Shown here: piece by piece, positions 17,401-30,620 of the stretch
Position numbering within the stretch: position 1 is the first letter of the stretch
Layout: the number at the start of each line of letters is the position of its first letter
Source: Lepidurus packardi
Taxonomy: Eukaryota; Arthropoda; Branchiopoda; Notostraca; Triopsidae
NCBI GenBank assembly: GCA_023053545.1
Contig: JAKZAN010000005.1
Coordinates: 5,456,001 to 5,520,000, forward strand
Reading direction: 5' to 3'
Length of the DNA: 64,000 bases
Program-made: the position numbers and the translations under genes
Notes under the pieces: model-generated
Seen by the model: the letters and a program-made list of their open reading frames with translations, nothing else
Databases searched by the model: none
What the model was told of the DNA's origin: nothing

Positions 17401-18486
17401 CTTTTCAAGTCTCGTGAATTGGATTAACACTTTTTTTAGGATATGGAGAAATGGGCCAAGACTCTTAACCAGAGGAAAGAGGTAGCCAGACAGCCAACAA
17501 TGGCCCATTCTTCCGCGTCAGCATCAGCAGACGCCGGATATAACGTTCTGGAGAAGAAAGACAGTAAAAATTCCTTGTCTGAGGTGCTGCAAGTGTTTCA
17601 GCAAAAGACCATTGAAGAGAAACTAGGCGTAAATTCTCTTTCTTCTGGTTTCTAAGCATAAGGTGACTAACTTGGAATGGTTTTAAGGTCAAATCCAAGC
17701 CTGGCTTGGTTGCAGCGTATGGTGGGGACAGCGAGAGTGATGACGACGAAGAAAAACGCCGTGGTGGACATAAAATCCCACCTTCAATTCCCGCTGACAG
17801 TAATTCTGGTGCTGTGGGAGATCTTTTGACAGATTGGAGCAGATTAGCTTGCCTCTTGTGTAAGCGTCAGTTTGGCAGCAAAGAAGCCTTGATAAAGTAC
17901 TCCTTTACTTCTGGCTAGAGCCCAAATAACTGACTAATGGTTCGTTTCTTAGACATCAACAATTGTCTGACCTCCATAAGCAGAACTTGGAGCAGTGGAA
18001 AAAGAGTCAAAGCCAAACAGATGGAGCTGCGTACCGGGATCGTGCCAAGGAGCGGAGAGCCAAACATGGGGAACCTGATGATTTGCCTAGGCCTCCCAAG
18101 GTAACTCTTTTTAAAATCCTGGAATTATTTTAGTATGTTTTGGGTAATCATAGGAAAGCTACGCCAAAAACAGGGAAGAACGAGTGAATTGTGAAGAGCC
18201 TGTTAAAGCCGGTATTACTGACAGCAACGTGGGGAATAAATTGCTGCAGAAAATGGGTTGGCAGCAAGGAATGGGTCTGGGAAAGAGTAATCAAGGACGA
18301 ACAGATATCATCGAGGTAAATTCTCATAATACTTGAATTAACATAGCTTTATTTTCTTTCTTTAAGGCTGAAGGAAGGAATACGACGGCAGGATTAGGGA
18401 CTAGCACCTACGGGCCAGTAGCTGGGGATAGTTATCGTGACTCGGTGAAGAAGATGACCGTTTTGCGCTATAAAGAGCTTGATTGA
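14482..18486 (+). CDS. RBM5/RBM10-type RNA-binding splicing regulator
   Basis: Sixteen exons join in phase: 14482-14630, 14682-15032, 15089-15197, 15268-15337, 15515-15588, 15879-15992, 16044-16158, 16223-16453, 16535-16665, 16728-16953, 17101-17393, 17440-17628, 17688-17896, 17953-18100, 18154-18315 and 18367-18486, about 896 aa. Domain order is diagnostic: an RS-rich stretch (about 90-165), RRM1 with RNP1 SRGFAFVEF (about 183-270), a RanBP2-type zinc finger [20 protein letters not shown] (about 286-312), RRM2 (about 325-404), an OCRE domain of Tyr-rich repeats ([20 protein letters not shown], about 528-570), a C2H2 finger [20 protein letters not shown] (about 736) and a G-patch [18 protein letters not shown] (about 825). 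These nuclear proteins control exon choice, including their own. The exon junction near 16665/16728 has an in-phase alternative (16691 to 16733). Convergent with CAPS. Confidence 0.95.
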
Positions 18487-19113: not shown

Positions 19114-19333
19114 TCAAAACCAAGAGCCAGGGTTGCTTAGCTTGCTCGACAAGCCGCCTGCCAAACCGCCAAGACCTTTACCGAAAACGGAGCCCACTTT
19201 TCCCACCATTTGATTCGTTACGTTGCTCAACTTCGCTACCACGGTTCCTTCTTCGGATCCAGTAGCCATTCCTAGGAGTCCTCCAGCAGCACTCGATCTA
19301 GCGCCTTCCTCTTCCAAGCCGGTCTCGGGGTAG
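19114..19333 (-). CDS. Cadps: Last coding exon of CAPS, Gly-rich tail
   Basis: Acceptor at 19334, entered in phase 2, and ending at a TGA at 19114-19116. It encodes a tail with [20 protein letters not shown], then a run of Gly, Val, Lys and Ser ([20 protein letters not shown]) and the end NPGSWF. Vertebrate CAPS instead ends in an acidic tail, so this Gly-rich C-terminus differs and might be lineage-specific. Confidence 0.8.
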
Positions 19334-22300
19334 CTAATCAAAGGAAATGCGAGAAATTAGTTGAAGTTAAGAAACTTAAAGAAAATCGAACACAGTTACT
19401 CTGTTTCATAGCTGCCGGAAGTCATGGTCAAGGCGCAAGTGGCTTCTTCCGTTTGCATTCTTTGCTGGACAGTCTGATACGTCTTGGAGTTCAACTTTTC
19501 CTCCATGACGCCTTGAAGCTCAAAATCAGAATAAAGCTTCTGCTTACGGTCAAGGGAAAGGAACGAAATAGAGAAAGAAATCCGTCCGCAGCAATTTGAA
19601 GGAATAGGGCAATTAATATATATTTATTTTTCCCTCAGATCATTTTAAATAGAATAAAACTTAAGAAACGAGCTTCCTCAAATAAGCAGATCTCTACGGA
19701 ATGACTTAGCTTCAAGACTGGAATGTGACCAAAAACGCGACTAGCAAATCAGATCATGAGACAGTTAAGAACAAAGAAGGCAAACAAAATACAACTATTA
19801 CTGTCCTGAGAAACTCTAGTTGTGCCTAGTTGTGCTGAAAGTAGAGTGTGGGTTTCTCTTCACAAAAGACCGTTCTTTATCAAACGTTCCGTTTCGGTGA
19901 TTAAACGTTCCTGAACGGTGATGGCAGCAGGGAAAACGAGTTTGATAGGCAGCACGCCTTGGAGCTCAAAATCCATACTCATTTTCTGTCCTCCCAAAAA
20001 AAGGCAACAAACCAAAAATAACACATAAAAAACCAAATACATACGTGCCATAATATAAAAAAACTCAGACAAGGCAGTTAAATTCTATAGATACAACACT
20101 CGAATATCTATGAAACGTTACGACTTACCTTTACAATATGGGAAAGGCAAGTACACTGATATGGGTGCAAGGAATGGTTGAGTCGGTCCGATAACCATGT
20201 GCATAAATTTTGAATCTGGCTAGTGTACCAAGTCTAAAGAATATTATGATCATAAAAGTTAATTTTCAACCACATGACTAGTAATCAGTGTTCCGGATCT
20301 TTTTTTCGTCGGATGCTGGATCATTATTCGATCATTCATGAGCTTCTGTCGATCCCATCTGATCAAATACTGCAAAACTTTAAAAAAAATAGTCACGGAT
20401 CCGGGAAGATCCTGATCGACCCGATCATTTTTACGAAAAATAATAATAAAAATGAACTTCGAACAAAAAAATGATAAAATAAAAATCGAACTGTGCCCAC
20501 TAGATTGCCTGATTTGATCGATAAATTTCCAAAAAAATCGATATGATCCCTGACACTTTACGGTGCAAGGCCGATCCGACCAAATGATCGGAACTTTTTG
20601 AAAGATCCACAACACTGTACTGTAGGTATGATTACCTCAAACAAATTAAGTATCCAGAGCTCGTCATTAACTCGTCCACGTATCTGGTCCATGCAATTTC
20701 TCGTAAAATTGACGTACGCCTGTCCAAGCTCTTTGCCAGACCCAGAAACATTCTAATAAAGATCAACATGAATCTTTCTAATCGATAAATTAAGATAAAC
20801 TGCAGCATACAGTGAAGGATAAGATGGAACCAATGAGACTCCCTTCGTCATAGCGGGAGAGCTTGCCTAAAACATTCTCCAAAACCGAGGCCAGCTTGGT
20901 GAGAATGCCCTGAGTCATTGCACTGGAAGTTTTTTCAATCAAGTCATCGATCTTGGTATGGTACTGGTGCTGAAAACGAAGAAACGAAACCTATAGTACG
21001 TGGAATTCCAATGAATTTTGAAAATACCAAATCAACGCCGTCTACTGCACATAACTTGAGAGACTGGATTTTGGCATCCAAGACGACATTGACCATGGCG
21101 CATAATTCCGCGGGTAGGACATAATCCGTCGAGTTAAAAGTGACTCCCTTTTTGAGCCAAGTTTGGAATGCAGCATCGGTTCTGAGTACCATCATCGTGA
21201 GCAGATTGTTCCATCAGAAAAACTGGAATATACCTCTGGATGCAGGATTCAATCATATCGGCAGCCATAAGCTTCAAGCGTTGTTCTAAATGGGATCCAA
21301 ATTCCGCATCAGGCCAATGTAAATCTCGAATAAAGGACTGTAACGCGTCTAGCTTCCAAAACAGATCTTCCGACGTAGCACATCCATTCCTAGAACAAAA
21401 AAAAAAAAAAAAAAGCTTATAAGGTAAAGGCTTCCATTTCTTCGTGATTTTTACCCTTTATTCTCCCATCGCTCTTTCTCAAAGCCTTTGTGGATCGACT
21501 GAGCAATCGAAGATTCCATCAAGTCGACATAACGGACAACCTGGGGTGCAAATGTCTCTCGCAAATGCTGATGGAACCGCCCGCTCTTCAAATTGTCTGG
21601 CAGTCAGGTTTTTAAATTAGAAACAAATTTCTAAGTTTTAAAAGACTGAAGAAATTACCATCCATTCTTAAGTAGTCATTTAAAATTTGGAACAAGGGAA
21701 ATGAATCCCACGTATCGGGCTGCTGCTCGGACAAAACCGTGTCCATATCCACTGCAAAGAACGACCAAAAGATCTCGGCATGTTCCACCAATAAATCACT
21801 GAACCAGGCAAACGCCTACACACACAAAATCAAGAAAAATGTTAACGAAACGGTTCTTAAGCCCCCTTATAAATGAATAGTCCAAAAACAACCGAAATAC
21901 TCTTTCTGAACGAGTAAGAAAACTCCAGATTTTTGGACATGCATGGCCCATGCACAGAAGAGAGAGAATCATGCACCAATGTACTCACTTGATCCTGGGA
22001 AGAAGATAATTTTTTGTGACAAGGAGGAGAGGAGCATAGAAAGCACGTGTTTTTTGTTTTTTTCGAAAGGAAGGCAGGAAAGAGAAAACGGGACAATTAT
22101 GAATAGAAATTTGGAATGTGTTGCCAGCCAAATTTGTAAGTTGTAAGAAATTGAAGAAAAAGAGTTTAAAACCCAACTCACCGATCTGAAAGCCTGAATT
22201 TTTTGGAGAAAAGGTAGCGAAAAGAAGGGGGAGGCGAAAAAAAAGAAGAAGTGAACAATGACATACAACAATGACACTGAACAATGAACAGCCCTTATTC

Positions 22301-25300
22301 GTTTTTGGGGTAAAGTTCCAAAAGGAAATCTAGACAAGAGGAAGGAGACAGAGACATCCAAAAAAGGAAGTTCTGCAAAGTTGGAAAAGTTAGAGGAGCA
22401 GCCAATCCAACAGCCATTCAACTTCCAAAATCCCACAAAAAAATACAAAATAAAAACTTTTCTGATCTTTTTTTTGGCCTTTCAACATCGAACGACGACT
22501 TCAAGTGATCTTGCGACAATTTTTTGGTTCAGTGGACACGTGGAGAAGAGAGACATAAATATCAAATCTTAAATCCCACACTGTTGACCCATTTAAAGTA
22601 CATGAAAGTGGGTTTTACCTCTGAATAGTGCTCTTCATTTTGCTGCAGTAAATCTACACATAATTCCGCCAGGTGAATTAAATCTTCCAGTTTTTTGGAT
22701 ACTGGTACAGGAAACTCCCCACTTAGGTCCTCTACATTACAGAAAGTTACGAGTTAGATACAGGTCAACAGGTTCCGTAACTAGTACAGCATTTAAGTAG
22801 TATTTGAAGACACTTTGCCATATTTTCCGGTAGAACGACCCTATTCCTCTGATTTAATTGATAGGGAACTTATACACTGTCTGACTTCTGCATACCAGCT
22901 ACATAGAATTAATTCCTCCCGAAACACTCGAAGTTTAGTCGTATTTTCGATATTAGAAATATGTAAAGACACGAGAAGAAAAGGAAGTACAGTACATGCC
23001 GCTTACTGTGGTCACGTTTGTCAAGGGAATATTGATTCCATTAAGCGGAGATTCTAATAGTCGAAAATCGGACATATGTACCAAACAAACAACGCACCGT
23101 CTACTTTTGACATTTCCCACACGTTTCCTTTTCTAGATTCATTTCACCTACTACTGTTTATTTCGTAACGATTTTTCAAAAATGTTGATAGAGACGATTG
23201 AGGAATTCCTAACTTCAACGGTCTCTCCCCTTCGTGGCATATCTTTTAAATTTAACTTGTCATAAGTTTTAATGAGCCGGAACTTTTCCTTTACATTTAA
23301 ATCAACTCTTTTCTTGTTCGTAGCCATTTTTATATAACCACAAGTTTAAAACACAACTAAGACTGCACCTTTGAAGCCTACTCCTACGCTTTGGTAGGGT
23401 TAACAAAGCGATATCCCATCTAATTTTCTCAGTCAATTAAAGGAACTGGTCATTCATTTGAATAGTCTGCTCATTTAGTTGACTGGGGAGTTTAGACGGG
23501 ATATCCCCCTAAGCGTAGAAGTAGGCTGAAAGTTACAGGATTGGTCAGAATGACGTAAAAGCTATGTCATTGGTCAATATGCAATGTCCATGTAGCAATC
23601 ACCACTGCAGTTTCGTTACCGTACATGTGAGGATTCTTTTTAAATGATCCTTATAACCGAATAAAATGGTATGAATTTTATCATTTTGAATCAGTCCTTT
23701 AAAATCTGATTCCGTAACAGGCTGATTCTAATAACCAGTGATCTATAAGCGGCATCTACTGTATGTTAACTAATATGACAGTATTCGTATAACTAAAAAT
23801 AATAAACATGCTAAACATTAGAACTAAGGAATAGTGATTTCGTATCGCACAACCAGAACACATTACCTTGTATGGTACTCTCCGCTCCTGGGAGTTGGCA
23901 GTGAAAAGACGGATAAAAGTGGTAATTTAATGTAATAGATAGTAAAAAAAAGGAAGTACCTTCAACTTTAGCTTCGCTAGCTAGTCTATTGTAATTAATC
24001 AAGGCTGCATTTTCCAGACATTTTTTAATAACTGCACGAACTTCATCGGTTGCCACTGGTGTCATGATATCCTTCATGAGAACGCGTTCCAATAAGGATA
24101 AAGTGGCTTTCAATGCTCCTTCGGGTCTCCCAAACGGAAAACATGATCTACTCGCCGAAAATGAATTCATTATTATACAAAAAGTATTCACATCACTTCT
24201 ACGTTGCAATAAAACTAAGATATTACCTAAAATTTGTAATTTGGTACTCCAACAAGCCTCGTAAGCGCTCTTTCACCTCCAGGAATTTGTCTTTCTCTTC
24301 GTGTGTCACCGTCCCAACTCCATCCGGCCTAAATTGAACAAAAGTAAATGAAACAATTAATTATCACAACTACACCGTATTTGACATTGGGCAGAATATT
24401 TTAAGAAAAAAGAAAGAAAGAAGTACAGAAAATCGGCCCCCATTCACTACGTGAGAACACTGACAAAACAATGGAAACGAATTTCGACAGTTGAGTCAAA
24501 CGAATGAGCAAATTGGCAATAATGACTGGGAGGGACGAAGAAAGCCATAAATGTAAAGGGGGAAAAAAAAGAACTGGCACCGAACTGGACATGAGCAACA
24601 TCCCACATACACTACTACAAGGGACACATGACTCATGACAAAACACCTTCTGGAACATTACCTGGCTGACGGCAATACACTGCTTTCCGTGTGCCTTGGA
24701 ACGAAGAAGGGGATTTTTTTAAAGCAGAAAAGACAATTTTGTATCTTTCCGACAGAGGAATTTTCTTTGGATAAGAAATAAAGATCCCCGCATTACATTA
24801 TAAGACGGCAAGACCTTATATTTTCTAAATTTTCCCTGGCTTTGATCCTTGTGCCCAATGTTACCTCTTCTTTGAATTCACATGAATGAATAATTAATAT
24901 AGCATGCCCTAAATCTTGACTTCTCTCGAGTCATAAATACGAGACAGGAGAAAAAAACAGAACGACATGAAATCGAGCCCAAGTCAAGTTCCAAAAAAAG
25001 TAAAAAAGAAATCTAAAAGAGATCTAAACTCCTCCACCAAAGAAAGAAGATACACGGTTTTTGTTCTATGTTTTTACCTGTTTCCATGGACGTGAGAGGC
25101 ACAAAAGGCAAAGCTGTAATGAATTAAGGTCGGATCCACCATTATGCCTCGTTCAGCCCGATCCAGCAAATCAGACAAGTAACACAAGTGCCGATAACAT
25201 CCTCGCACTCCATAACGGGCGCAGTACTCGTCTAGCACGAACACTTGACCGGGACTAAACCAGCCCTATTCAAGAACGTACAAAAAAGTGACATTTTTTT

Positions 25301-28300: not shown

Positions 28301-30620
28301 AGTTGATGCTCAAACTTTTTCACGCCCAAAATTTGCTGGAACATGTCATACAGCTGTTCTTTGGTCAAAATGAGCTCGCTGTTAAAAGGCTGCATCATTC
28401 GAGGTTTTCTAGTATCCTCCTCCCCTGAGGATCAATGAAAATGCTATTAATTCCACGGAAATTAGCCAAAAATAATTAAATAATTTTACCACCTTTGAAA
28501 ATCGCGTCCCATTTCACCATCCAAGAGGTGAGGACAGTTTCTTTGCTCAAGCCATCGATTTCCGGTAAAGATCTGATGCGTTTTTCAATATTGGTACGGA
28601 AAACTTCTCGGAAATCTAACTGCGAAAACCCCCCGGCCTGAACCATTCTCAAGACTCGCTCTGACCGCAGGAAAATTTCAAAATAGTTCTGAATGGCATT
28701 ATGGAAAGCCTCGTCGGCCATGATTTGGGTTTCGCCCTTCATAAAACGCTGCAAAAAGCACGTTAGTCTTTTTTTTCAGATATAAAACTGTTTTTTTCTT
28801 AGACATTAGTACTTGAAATTGGGTTTGGAGCATGTCTAACTGCTGCTTGGAAACTTTAGTCTGTCGCCGAGTCATATCTGTGGGCTGTTTGGCATTGAAA
28901 GGATAGGCTACGGCCCGTGACACAAAGACATATAACTGAATCCGCCGCTTACGCTCTTCTTCCTCTCTTTCTTGCTTATCCTTGAAAAAACATGAGCAAA
29001 AAATAAGCAAAAAAGCCAGCGCCAGCCTAAGCGTTACTTGTAACTCCTGCTCTGCTTTGTCTGACGTCATAGATGGGGAGGGAGACGTGGGGCGGGGCAA
29101 AGTACCTCCTCGCGAGCTGACTGACCCGCCCAGTAGTCCGCTCTCTCCATGAACAGCCACAGAAGGTGATAGGTTCCTTAAAAAAAAAAAAAAAAATAAG
29201 AATAATAAATTCATAAAATCTAAGGAAATTGAATCAAGTAGAATTTAAAGTAAGCAGCAACAACGAGCTATTCCAATTTCGAACAGACTCTACACGCAGG
29301 TTCAACTGGAATGCATGGGAAATAAAAACAGCAAATCTGAGGAGTTTATTACTTTACCAAGGCTTGACGGTAAGAAAAGTACACTGTAAGTAAGCCCATA
29401 AATACTGGAACCTTTTTGTTCGAAGCGAGAGATAAATTCGAAGTTTAAGCCCTTTTAAGGGTCAAATTCAAAAGATATACAGCTGCGAAGAAAAATTTCC
29501 ATAAAAAAGGATAACTTGATTATTTTTTTTGAAGTCGCGTGAAGTTAATTTATCGTGGAAGTTGAGAGCTTTTCTAATCCCAAAAGTAAGCCTCGCTTGC
29601 CCTTTTCATTCAGTCTGATGCTACTTTTGATTGGATTAGCATGATTGGAGTTACCAGGACGTATTTTAGTTACCATGGTAATATGCCAAAAGGGGACATT
29701 TGCTTAGCTCACGTATGCACGAAGCAACGATAAAAAGCTACAACTTGTCTGCGTGCAATTTTGCCTCTTTTCCTTTTCCCCGTGCTTTTTCTGGTCTCGC
29801 TGGGCTAACAAAAATGGGTCGTTACACTTTTTTCAAAATTTTTCAAATATATAAAACGACAATAGAGCTCTTCCCCGGAAGAAAGAAAAAAACATGCCTG
29901 CTCAAAAAAAGAAGAAAGACTGATTTATGACTGTTTCTGAACTCCTAAGGGAAGAATGTCGTATTCAAGTAGGTTCCTCTGAAGGTAAATTATATCAGCT
30001 CGTGTAAAAGTAAAGACAGAATCAAGTCCATTATACTTTATTTTATGCAAAACAGGTATAAAAAAAGAAGAACTAAATACAGGTAGCAAAATCGAGTTGC
30101 AACGGGTCGCGAAAGCTTCCCAAGCCTCGCAAGTGCTAACGTAGTTATCGATCCGTAAAGTCGACCAGTGTGTGTGTGTGTGTGTTTGTCCCGAGCCACG
30201 ACTCGGAAGAAAACCCATAAGGTGTGTGGAAAAACATCCCTTTCCCCCTAAGTTTGAAAAGATTGGCAAACATGGTGAAAAGGTTCCAGTTTGACGTCAC
30301 ACCCTGCATTCTTAGTACTTCCAACGTCCGAATAACCTTTGCAAACTTTAAGTAATTCGATTCTGATCATTTACTCAAAAAAGCAAAAAAGGGCAAAAGA
30401 AGTTGCACAATTACTTCGACAAGGATCCAGTTATGCTAGGCACTTCCAAGCCCGGCCCTCCCACAAACGTGTGGTGGGCGTGTCCGATAGGCGGTCCTCC
30501 CGCCGCTGAAGCGGCCGAGGATGAAGGTGGAGCAGCACCCGATTCATGGATCGTCTTGGATTCGACGTGGACCTCGTCATCTCCGTCACTTTCTTCCTCT
30601 GATGAACTGGGATCAATCAT
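19114..30620 (-). CDS. Cadps: Calcium-dependent activator protein for secretion (CAPS/Cadps, unc-31)
   Basis: About 1376-1382 aa (human about 1350). Phase-consistent exons: 30415-30620, 29038-29176, 28813-28980, 28490-28748, 28282-28424, 28136-28216, 27908-28080, 27337-27430, 27120-27244, 26247-26391, 25908-26190, 25772-25816 (45 nt), 25545-25733, 25344-25480, 25078-25265, 24227-24328, 23960-24147, 23867-23887 (21 nt), 22619-22731, 21659-21815, 21455-21596, 21234-21389, 21028-21181, 20811-20969, 20636-20752, 20129-20233, then 19864-19985 or 19400-19538, then 19114-19333. The start [11 protein letters not shown] and the core ([35 protein letters not shown]) are highly conserved. A C2-like region spans about 410-510, a PH domain about 540-670 ([16 protein letters not shown]), and the Munc13-homology region about 930-1180. 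The protein primes dense-core vesicles for Ca2+-triggered release by binding PIP2, SNAREs and vesicles. The C-terminal exons differ by isoform, as noted separately. Confidence 0.95.
19400..19538 (-). CDS. Cadps: CAPS penultimate exon, downstream copy, with a frameshift as written
   Basis: Good acceptor (19539) and donor (GTAACT at 19399). It starts [11 protein letters not shown], the conserved family segment, and later encodes [19 protein letters not shown], also conserved (vertebrates have LNSKTYETI...LTVEEAT). The two parts are in different frames: the exon is 139 nt, one base short of the 140 needed, and as written it reaches a stop right after QGVMEKS, around 19489-19497. The defect sits by an A-run near 19494-19500, so a base-calling or assembly error is possible, as is a real mutation. 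The terminal exon needs entry in phase 2, which a 140-nt exon would supply. Confidence 0.8.
19864..19985 (-). CDS. Cadps: CAPS alternative penultimate exon, upstream duplicate
   Basis: This segment follows an acceptor at 19986 and starts [16 protein letters not shown], aligning residue for residue with the downstream copy (DFELQGV shared exactly; TVQER matching TVQQR; ETE matching TEEA). It is therefore a diverged tandem exon duplicate. If read through, it ends at a TGA at 19860-19862 after NGLL, giving a short C-terminus. If spliced at the weak donor GTGAAG at 19863, it leaves in phase 2 and joins the last exon in frame. Either way it would be an alternative to the 19400-19538 exon. Whether it is used cannot be told from the DNA. 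Confidence 0.65.
20286..20617. mobile_element. hAT-like MITE with many GATC motifs in a CAPS intron
   Basis: Ends are inverted repeats: CAGTGTTCCGGATCTTT at the left and CAGTGTTGTGGATCTTT at the right (reverse strand). The 332-bp interior has no long open frame on family evidence. It contains 14 GATC tetranucleotides, far above chance, as expected of the subterminal transposase-binding repeats of hAT elements. An exact 8-bp target duplication is not visible, so the superfamily is tentative. It lies between the CAPS exons at 20129-20233 and 20636-20752. Confidence 0.55.
22990..23761 (-). mobile_element. Tigger/pogo-like non-autonomous transposon, copy A, in a CAPS intron
   Basis: The ends are inverted repeats, CAGTACATGCCGCTTA on the left and CAGTAGATGCCGCTTA on the right (reverse strand), flanked by TA on both sides, the target duplication of Tc1/mariner and pogo elements. 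At 772 bp it is too short to be autonomous. Inside, on the minus strand, 23151-23327 is an open frame of 58 codons starting [19 protein letters not shown], the start of a CENP-B-type DNA-binding domain, which then diverges by frameshift. Two related copies occur at 48459 and 55897. It interrupts the CAPS intron between the 21-nt exon (23867-23887) and 22619-22731. Confidence 0.8.
23375..23527. repeat. Fold-back sequence inside the Tigger-like element
   Basis: A 153-bp segment whose ends, AGCCTACTCCTACGCTT and AAGCGTAGAAGTAGGCT, pair with one mismatch; further in, gatatccc and a block around tcagtcaattaaa also pair with their partners. Related fold-backs stand at the same place in the copies at 48910-49063 and about 56265-56758, so it belongs to the family and is not a private insertion. 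Confidence 0.65.
26554..27079. mobile_element. TTAA-flanked MITE, copy in a CAPS intron
   Basis: Left end GGCTCCCGTACACCTTAA and right end, reversed, GGCCCCCGTATACCTTAG. The right flank is TTAA; the left flank has become TTAC. A second copy at 58764-59489 has TTAA on both sides. TTAA duplications are typical of piggyBac-type insertion, though these ends are not the classic CCC start. It has no coding capacity and sits in the CAPS intron between exons 27120-27244 and 26247-26391. Confidence 0.65.
29177..30414. other. Cadps: First intron of CAPS
   Basis: A 1.24-kb intron, long for this gene, which may contain regulatory sequence or alternative first exons; none was recognised. It holds a (TG)n run at about 30169-30186. 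Confidence 0.5.

Follow-up and report, generated by a model that had tools for sequence, protein, structure and literature searches.

CAPS is a protein that prepares hormone-filled vesicles for release. It readies vesicle release, and the map of mouse CAPS-1 comprises C2, PH and MHD domains and a DCV domain at residues 1220-1355 (PMC5589909). Isoforms with different ends are known for mouse CAPS2, which has six forms, three of them ending in unique exons that lie far upstream (PMC1853102). According to a 2017 paper, no similar isoforms had been described for CAPS-1 (PMC5589909). Human CADPS2 is listed among annotated clusters of three mutually exclusive exons, in a source whose accessible sections do not give the position of the cluster within the gene (PMC6071210), and CADPS goes unmentioned in the main text of two surveys of human exons that are duplicated or mutually exclusive (PMC9741552; PMC5740500).

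Outside CAPS, terminal exons that are homologous to each other form a known class. The gene for human capping protein beta has homologous alternative terminal exons, Drosophila Mhc has stop-bearing exons that are selected by inclusion, and on the X chromosome of D. melanogaster 14 of 101 alternative terminal exons, counting 5' and 3' ends, share such features (PMC3228551). In Pancrustacea, the peptide hormone gene CHH/ITP has an extra exon, reported in Daphnia, insects and decapods, that is believed to be a tandem duplicate and changes the C-terminus (PMC2841656).

The CAPS gene described here carries an extra copy (exon A) of its canonical penultimate exon (exon B), and the pair is probably a new case of this class. 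Exons A and B resemble the 3'-terminal exons of capping protein beta, which are chosen by poly(A) site (PMC3228551), in being alike in length, phase and sequence; the gene is a different one, and a choice between the CAPS exons is predicted only. The likeness to CHH/ITP lies in the extra exon and the changed C-terminus, whereas both isoforms of the Daphnia magna hormone gene are known from cDNA (PMC2841656). The predicted form ending in exon A, CAPS-A, would share with mouse CAPS2d-f an end in a unique 3' exon of its own. However, CAPS2d-f are deletions from exons 14, 12 and 5 that lose the MHD and the tail, and the available text terms their last exons unique without describing them as copies of a normal exon (PMC1853102). 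Neuron-type-specific splicing of a CAPS gene is known from the exon 3 cassette of C. elegans unc-31, but this cassette, unlike exon A, lies upstream of the main domains, where it encodes 12 residues, and the accessible portion of the report mentions no duplicated exon (PMC12084633). A duplicated C-terminal CAPS exon was not found in the open-licence literature, as far as the available text of its sources goes, in line with an initial annotation of this DNA that knew of no such pair; annotation databases lie outside this scope and may already predict such isoforms.

We read the window, that is, the whole 64-kb stretch of DNA analysed, exon by exon and found a complete CAPS/CADPS gene on the minus strand (30620-19114). 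Its 28 exons run from the ATG at 30620 to the TGA at 19114 and encode a canonical product of 1381 residues. All 27 introns are of the GT-AG type, and the phases agree throughout the gene model. Pfam matched C2_CAPS at residues 438-538 (E = 4.5e-50), PH at 545-657 (5.8e-7) and MUN at 864-1224 (9.8e-120), which is the domain order of CAPS, and 170 residues from the MUN region aligned closely with a known CAPS, calcium-dependent secretion activator 1 (PDB 6a68; E = 3.6e-83). Judged by these features of its sequence, the gene is CAPS. Searches of the 108.6-Mb assembly with the peptides of exons 15-17, exons B-C and exon A gave strong matches at the CAPS locus only, the best matches elsewhere having E values of 0.024 and 0.11, and these searches revealed no further CAPS gene in the assembly. 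At gathering thresholds, Rfam matched nothing in the window. Two further exons of the gene are short and phase-neutral. Exon 12 (25816-25772, minus strand) has 45 nt and an unusual donor, GTTCGT, encodes a 15-residue insert inside the Pfam PH match and is likely a cassette exon; exon 18 (23887-23867, minus strand) is a microexon of 21 nt and possibly a neural one.

The 3' end of the gene contains four exons of interest, all on the minus strand. Exon 26 (20233-20129), the shared upstream exon, ends in ...SHIVK with the donor AAG/GTAAGT (the slash marks the splice boundary), which had the highest leave-one-out score (10.26) of the 27 real donors. Exon B (19539-19400), which is exon 27 of the canonical model, is entered in phase 0 and left in phase 2; its acceptor reads GTAAGCAG/AAG CTT TAT TCT GAT TTT, with 19539 as the first base and 19400 as the last base of the exon. 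Exon C (19333-19114) is the last exon and encodes a Gly/Ala/Ser-rich tail of 72 residues ending in NPGSWF. Exon B presumably resembles the end of human CAPS, and we take the splice from exon 26 to exon B to be the route that matches known CAPS. The duplicated exon A (19985-19860) lies between exons 26 and B and consists of 41 codons followed by a TGA (19862-19860). Its acceptor reads ...GGACAG/AAA ATG AGT ATG GAT TTT, with the first base at 19985 in phase 0, and GATTTT starts 12 bases past the acceptor in exons A and B alike. The initial annotation had placed both exons after phase 0 acceptors, exon A at 19985 with a stop ending at 19860 and exon B at 19538-19400; all of this agrees with our gene model except the start of exon B, which is at 19539.

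The peptides of exons A and B are identical at 16 of their first 32 residues, without gaps and in the same splice register. Over 41 residues their ungapped BLOSUM62 score was 53, whereas shuffles averaged -28.9 (sd 12.2), and none of 200,000 reached the score of the pair. When the DFELQGV block was excluded, residues 12-33 still kept 8 identities (P = 3e-5 from shuffles). Among the 28 CAPS exon peptides searched against the masked introns and flanks of the gene, the A/B pair stood out with E = 1.05e-5, the next match having E = 0.024. A search of the 108.6-Mb genome with the exon A peptide, at E values up to 10, gave two matches, one being exon A and the other exon B (E = 0.71), and the interval 20128-19540 (589 nt) matched nothing but itself in the genome at E values up to 0.001. 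Pfam had no match for the exon A peptide. Searches of viral contigs with the exon B-C protein, of bacterial and archaeal contigs with the exon 26-B protein, and of both sets with a degenerate DNA pattern for DFxLQGV(x4)LNSKTY found no relatives, which says nothing about animals. Exons A and B are, on this evidence from alignment and register, homologous, as expected of tandem duplicates. The introns flanking them are no more similar than shuffles, suggesting either an old duplication or one that took no flank along; the former is probable. The DFELQGV and TVQ(E/Q)R blocks that had been noted in both exons are real, and the view that the upstream copy is the strongly diverged product of an old duplication is supported by the unalike introns. 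The similarity is concentrated in DFELQGV, where 19 of 20 nucleotides are the same and 5 of 7 identical residues share their codon, against 2 of 9 elsewhere. This excess of identical codons is not large enough to make a case for a recent gene conversion.

We next looked at coding constraint. Over codons 1-32, exons A and B differ with pN 0.42 and pS 0.86. In a neutral simulation, which scattered 49 differences randomly over the 96 exon B bases with their number fixed and without indels, a mean of 5.9 residues stayed identical (sd 1.7, maximum 14), and 16 was reached in none of 100,000 runs; codons 12-32 alone gave P = 3e-5. The coding score of exon A (7.75) exceeded those of all 961 open 41-codon intronic windows, which overlap one another (best 7.14), and was higher than 23% of the real CDS windows; the training set of the codon model was the complete CDS, in which exon B is present, so that the score of exon B is flattered, while exon A was held out. 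Codons 33-41 of exon A had a coding score of -1.58 and a pN (0.81) above pS (0.39), indicating no constraint. By comparison with exon B, therefore, coding constraint acts on the first 32 codons of the extra copy and not on its last nine, and the earlier suggestion that the upstream copy had been retained is borne out for this part. A decayed relic was rejected, as about 6 identities are expected under neutrality, the 16 observed never occurred in the simulations, and the codons look coding.

Our preferred explanation, to which we give a probability of about two in three, is that exon A arose long ago by tandem duplication of the penultimate coding exon of CAPS and has been kept as an alternative C-terminal exon. 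From the sequence we infer its use in RNA, the choice of the 3' end and an effect on vesicle binding. Splicing from 20129 to 19985 would end CAPS at the TGA at 19862-19860 and give CAPS-A, a protein of 1303 residues in which 41 residues follow the 1262 shared ones and replace the usual 119 of exons B and C. The transcript could end in two ways, by polyadenylation after exon A via an AATAAA at 19628-19623 (minus strand), or with exon A kept as a 184-nt exon through a donor at 19801, and both would yield the identical protein. Exon A would then most likely end the protein at its own TGA and is probably an alternative C-terminus of CAPS.

To assess these routes, we scored splice sites with matrices built from the 27 sites of each kind in this one gene, the real sites being scored leave-one-out and those of exon A with the full matrix. 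The exon A acceptor scored 4.6, a no more than average value within the range of the real acceptors (9 of the 27 are lower), and 50 of 646 non-site AGs scored as well; the acceptors of exons B and C scored 7.7 and 8.5. The candidate donor GTAATA (19801-19796, minus strand), 58 nt past the exon A stop, scored 5.74, above 9 of the 27 real donors, and 16 of 643 non-site GTs scored at least 5.7. This and the other GT count below include both candidate donors of exon A, and about 0.45 donors as good as GTAATA are expected by chance in 320 nt. The AATAAA at 19628 is the sole one between the exon A stop and exon B and could serve as poly(A) signal for an exon that has its own stop, as in homologous terminal exons. 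The other introns of the gene contain 3 AATAAA in 6772 nt, which predicts about 0.14 in the stretch, and the window-wide density of 1.2 per kb predicts about 0.4 in 320 nt, where one is not rare. With such chance expectations (0.45 for the donor, 0.14-0.4 for AATAAA), neither signal settles the 3' end.

The GTAATA donor also allows a poison or cassette exon, in which exon A is joined to exon B at 19802/19801 and its stop marks the mRNA for decay, so that exon A would mainly tune the level of CAPS. The coordinates put the stop 58 nt ahead of the junction, and the donor is a good one. The rule on the distance between stop and junction in mRNA decay is a mammalian one. A precedent is CHH/ITP of Daphnia magna, where two cDNAs differ by a 145-bp stretch that alters the C-terminus (PMC2841656). 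However, an exon acting as poison alone would not need to conserve its peptide, whereas that of exon A is constrained over 32 codons, and the chance expectation given above weakens the donor as evidence. We regard this explanation as unlikely.

In a mutually exclusive pair, exon A would instead splice through an in-frame donor, GTGAAG (19863-19858, minus strand), to exon C, giving full-length CAPS proteins that differ in the A/B segment only. The initial annotation had offered two endings, the early stop and this splice, whose donor it had called weak. In the gene model the join from 19864 to 19333 is indeed in frame and reads to the usual stop, and the phase 2 exit equals that of exon B, so that if the donor at 19863 is used both exons have phase 0 in and phase 2 out; their lengths of 122 and 140 nt, phases and similarity fit the rules used for predicting such pairs (PMC3228551). 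A transcript that spliced A at 19864 (phase 2) to B (phase 0) would lose the reading frame, so on this reading and on the preferred one alike A and B would be used one or the other. But GTGAAG scored -2.31, whereas even the weakest of the 27 real donors reached 0.1, and at least as high a score was obtained by 452 of 643 non-site GTs, GTGAAG among them. Weak donors can be regulated. Competing base pairing between introns is seen in some, not all, mutually exclusive exons; none of the five intron pairs that we folded here clearly beat shuffles (best z -1.16, with 24 of 200 shuffles as low), and the introns are unalike. The early stop thus fits better than the GTGAAG splice, use of this donor appears unlikely, and we consider a mutually exclusive pair to be rather improbable.

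About as improbable is a dead duplicate, an exon that was functional until recently and is now spliced out. The route of known CAPS from exon 26 to exon B, the unconstrained last nine codons of exon A and its acceptor, weaker than those of B and C, would all agree with it. Against it, exon A has no premature stop, frameshift or broken acceptor, and its first 32 codons are constrained. Chance likeness of an intronic stretch to exon B, to which the concentration of similarity in DFELQGV might point, has a negligible probability, as no shuffle matched the score, the rest of the alignment is significant without that block, and the likeness keeps the register from the acceptor and is the best of the 28 exon peptides by a wide margin.

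If exon A serves as an alternative C-terminus, the swap would keep the DFELQGV start, lose the exon C tail and change how CAPS holds vesicles. Exons B and C encode the last 119 of 1381 residues, which by position, not by residue-level alignment, fall within the DCV domain region of mouse CAPS-1; the initial annotation had placed the segment in a region that helps vesicle binding, and its position in the region mapped in mammals supports this. CAPS-1 lacking the C-terminal 135 residues was reportedly impaired in its interaction with dense-core vesicles (PMC5589909). On the other hand, some assays showed rescue of release by CAPS-2 that had lost its C-terminal half (PMC5589909; PMC12702071), and the consequences of a changed tail could therefore be small. 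The target bound by the C-terminal vesicle-binding region is described, in the available text of two reports, as still to be clarified (PMC3849599; PMC6579465), and one of these reports an N-terminal partner of CAPS (PMC6579465).

The two ends differ in character. Exon A keeps DFELQGV and TVQ-R of exon B, whereas an 11-residue segment has a mean Kyte-Doolittle value of -1.7 (polar) in B and +1.8 (hydrophobic) in A. The helical hydrophobic moment was 0.55 for residues 22-39 of A (shuffle P = 0.023), compared with 0.09 in B (P = 0.87), and exon A possibly adds an amphipathic helix. The exon C tail, 43% of which is Gly, Ala or Ser, is lost in the exon A form. It would be natural for exon A to alter or redirect membrane contact. 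We tentatively extend this, on balance with more doubt than confidence, to an ancient switch of the CAPS C-terminus across arthropods or wider, in which B plus C would be the vesicle-anchored end, A a hydrophobic and amphipathic end meeting another membrane or partner, and neurons would choose the vesicle class by terminal exon. Were exon A used as we propose, homologous but diverged C-termini within one gene would set the retained residues (DFELQGV, TVQ-R) apart from the exchanged ones, the vesicle-binding region would become testable by isoform swap instead of large truncation, and an arthropod case would be added of peptide-hormone release tuned through the choice of terminal exon.

Several observations concern the surroundings of the gene. 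Intron 18 of CAPS (22760-23760, minus strand) contains a dispersed repeat of about 775 bp, whose long non-self matches are 76-83% identical among the 40 of 663 first-look candidates that were scored; a short open frame within it matched nothing in Pfam above the curated cut-off. Another family of dispersed repeats is present in intron 25 (20260-20620, minus strand), with 23 matches including itself, the others being 70-90% identical. Adjoining the 3' end of CAPS, a short peptide on the plus strand (18223-18282), which we take to resemble a G-patch motif, perhaps marks a converging gene, and an open frame at 35514-34840 (minus strand) matches Pfam glycosyltransferase family 8 (E = 4.4e-8). COI-bearing mitochondrial DNA occurs elsewhere in the genome as several nuclear copies. 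One of them (L006; C6:696388-699669) has COI followed by a tRNA-Leu(UUR), as judged by eye, and COII. This gene order is a mark of Pancrustacea, the insects and crustaceans, and tentatively places the animal there; ARAGORN, run with the bacterial code, predicted no tRNA in this copy. Two further stop-free COX matches, on C52 and C214, are 47% and 44% identical and look bacterial, which hints at contaminating contigs.
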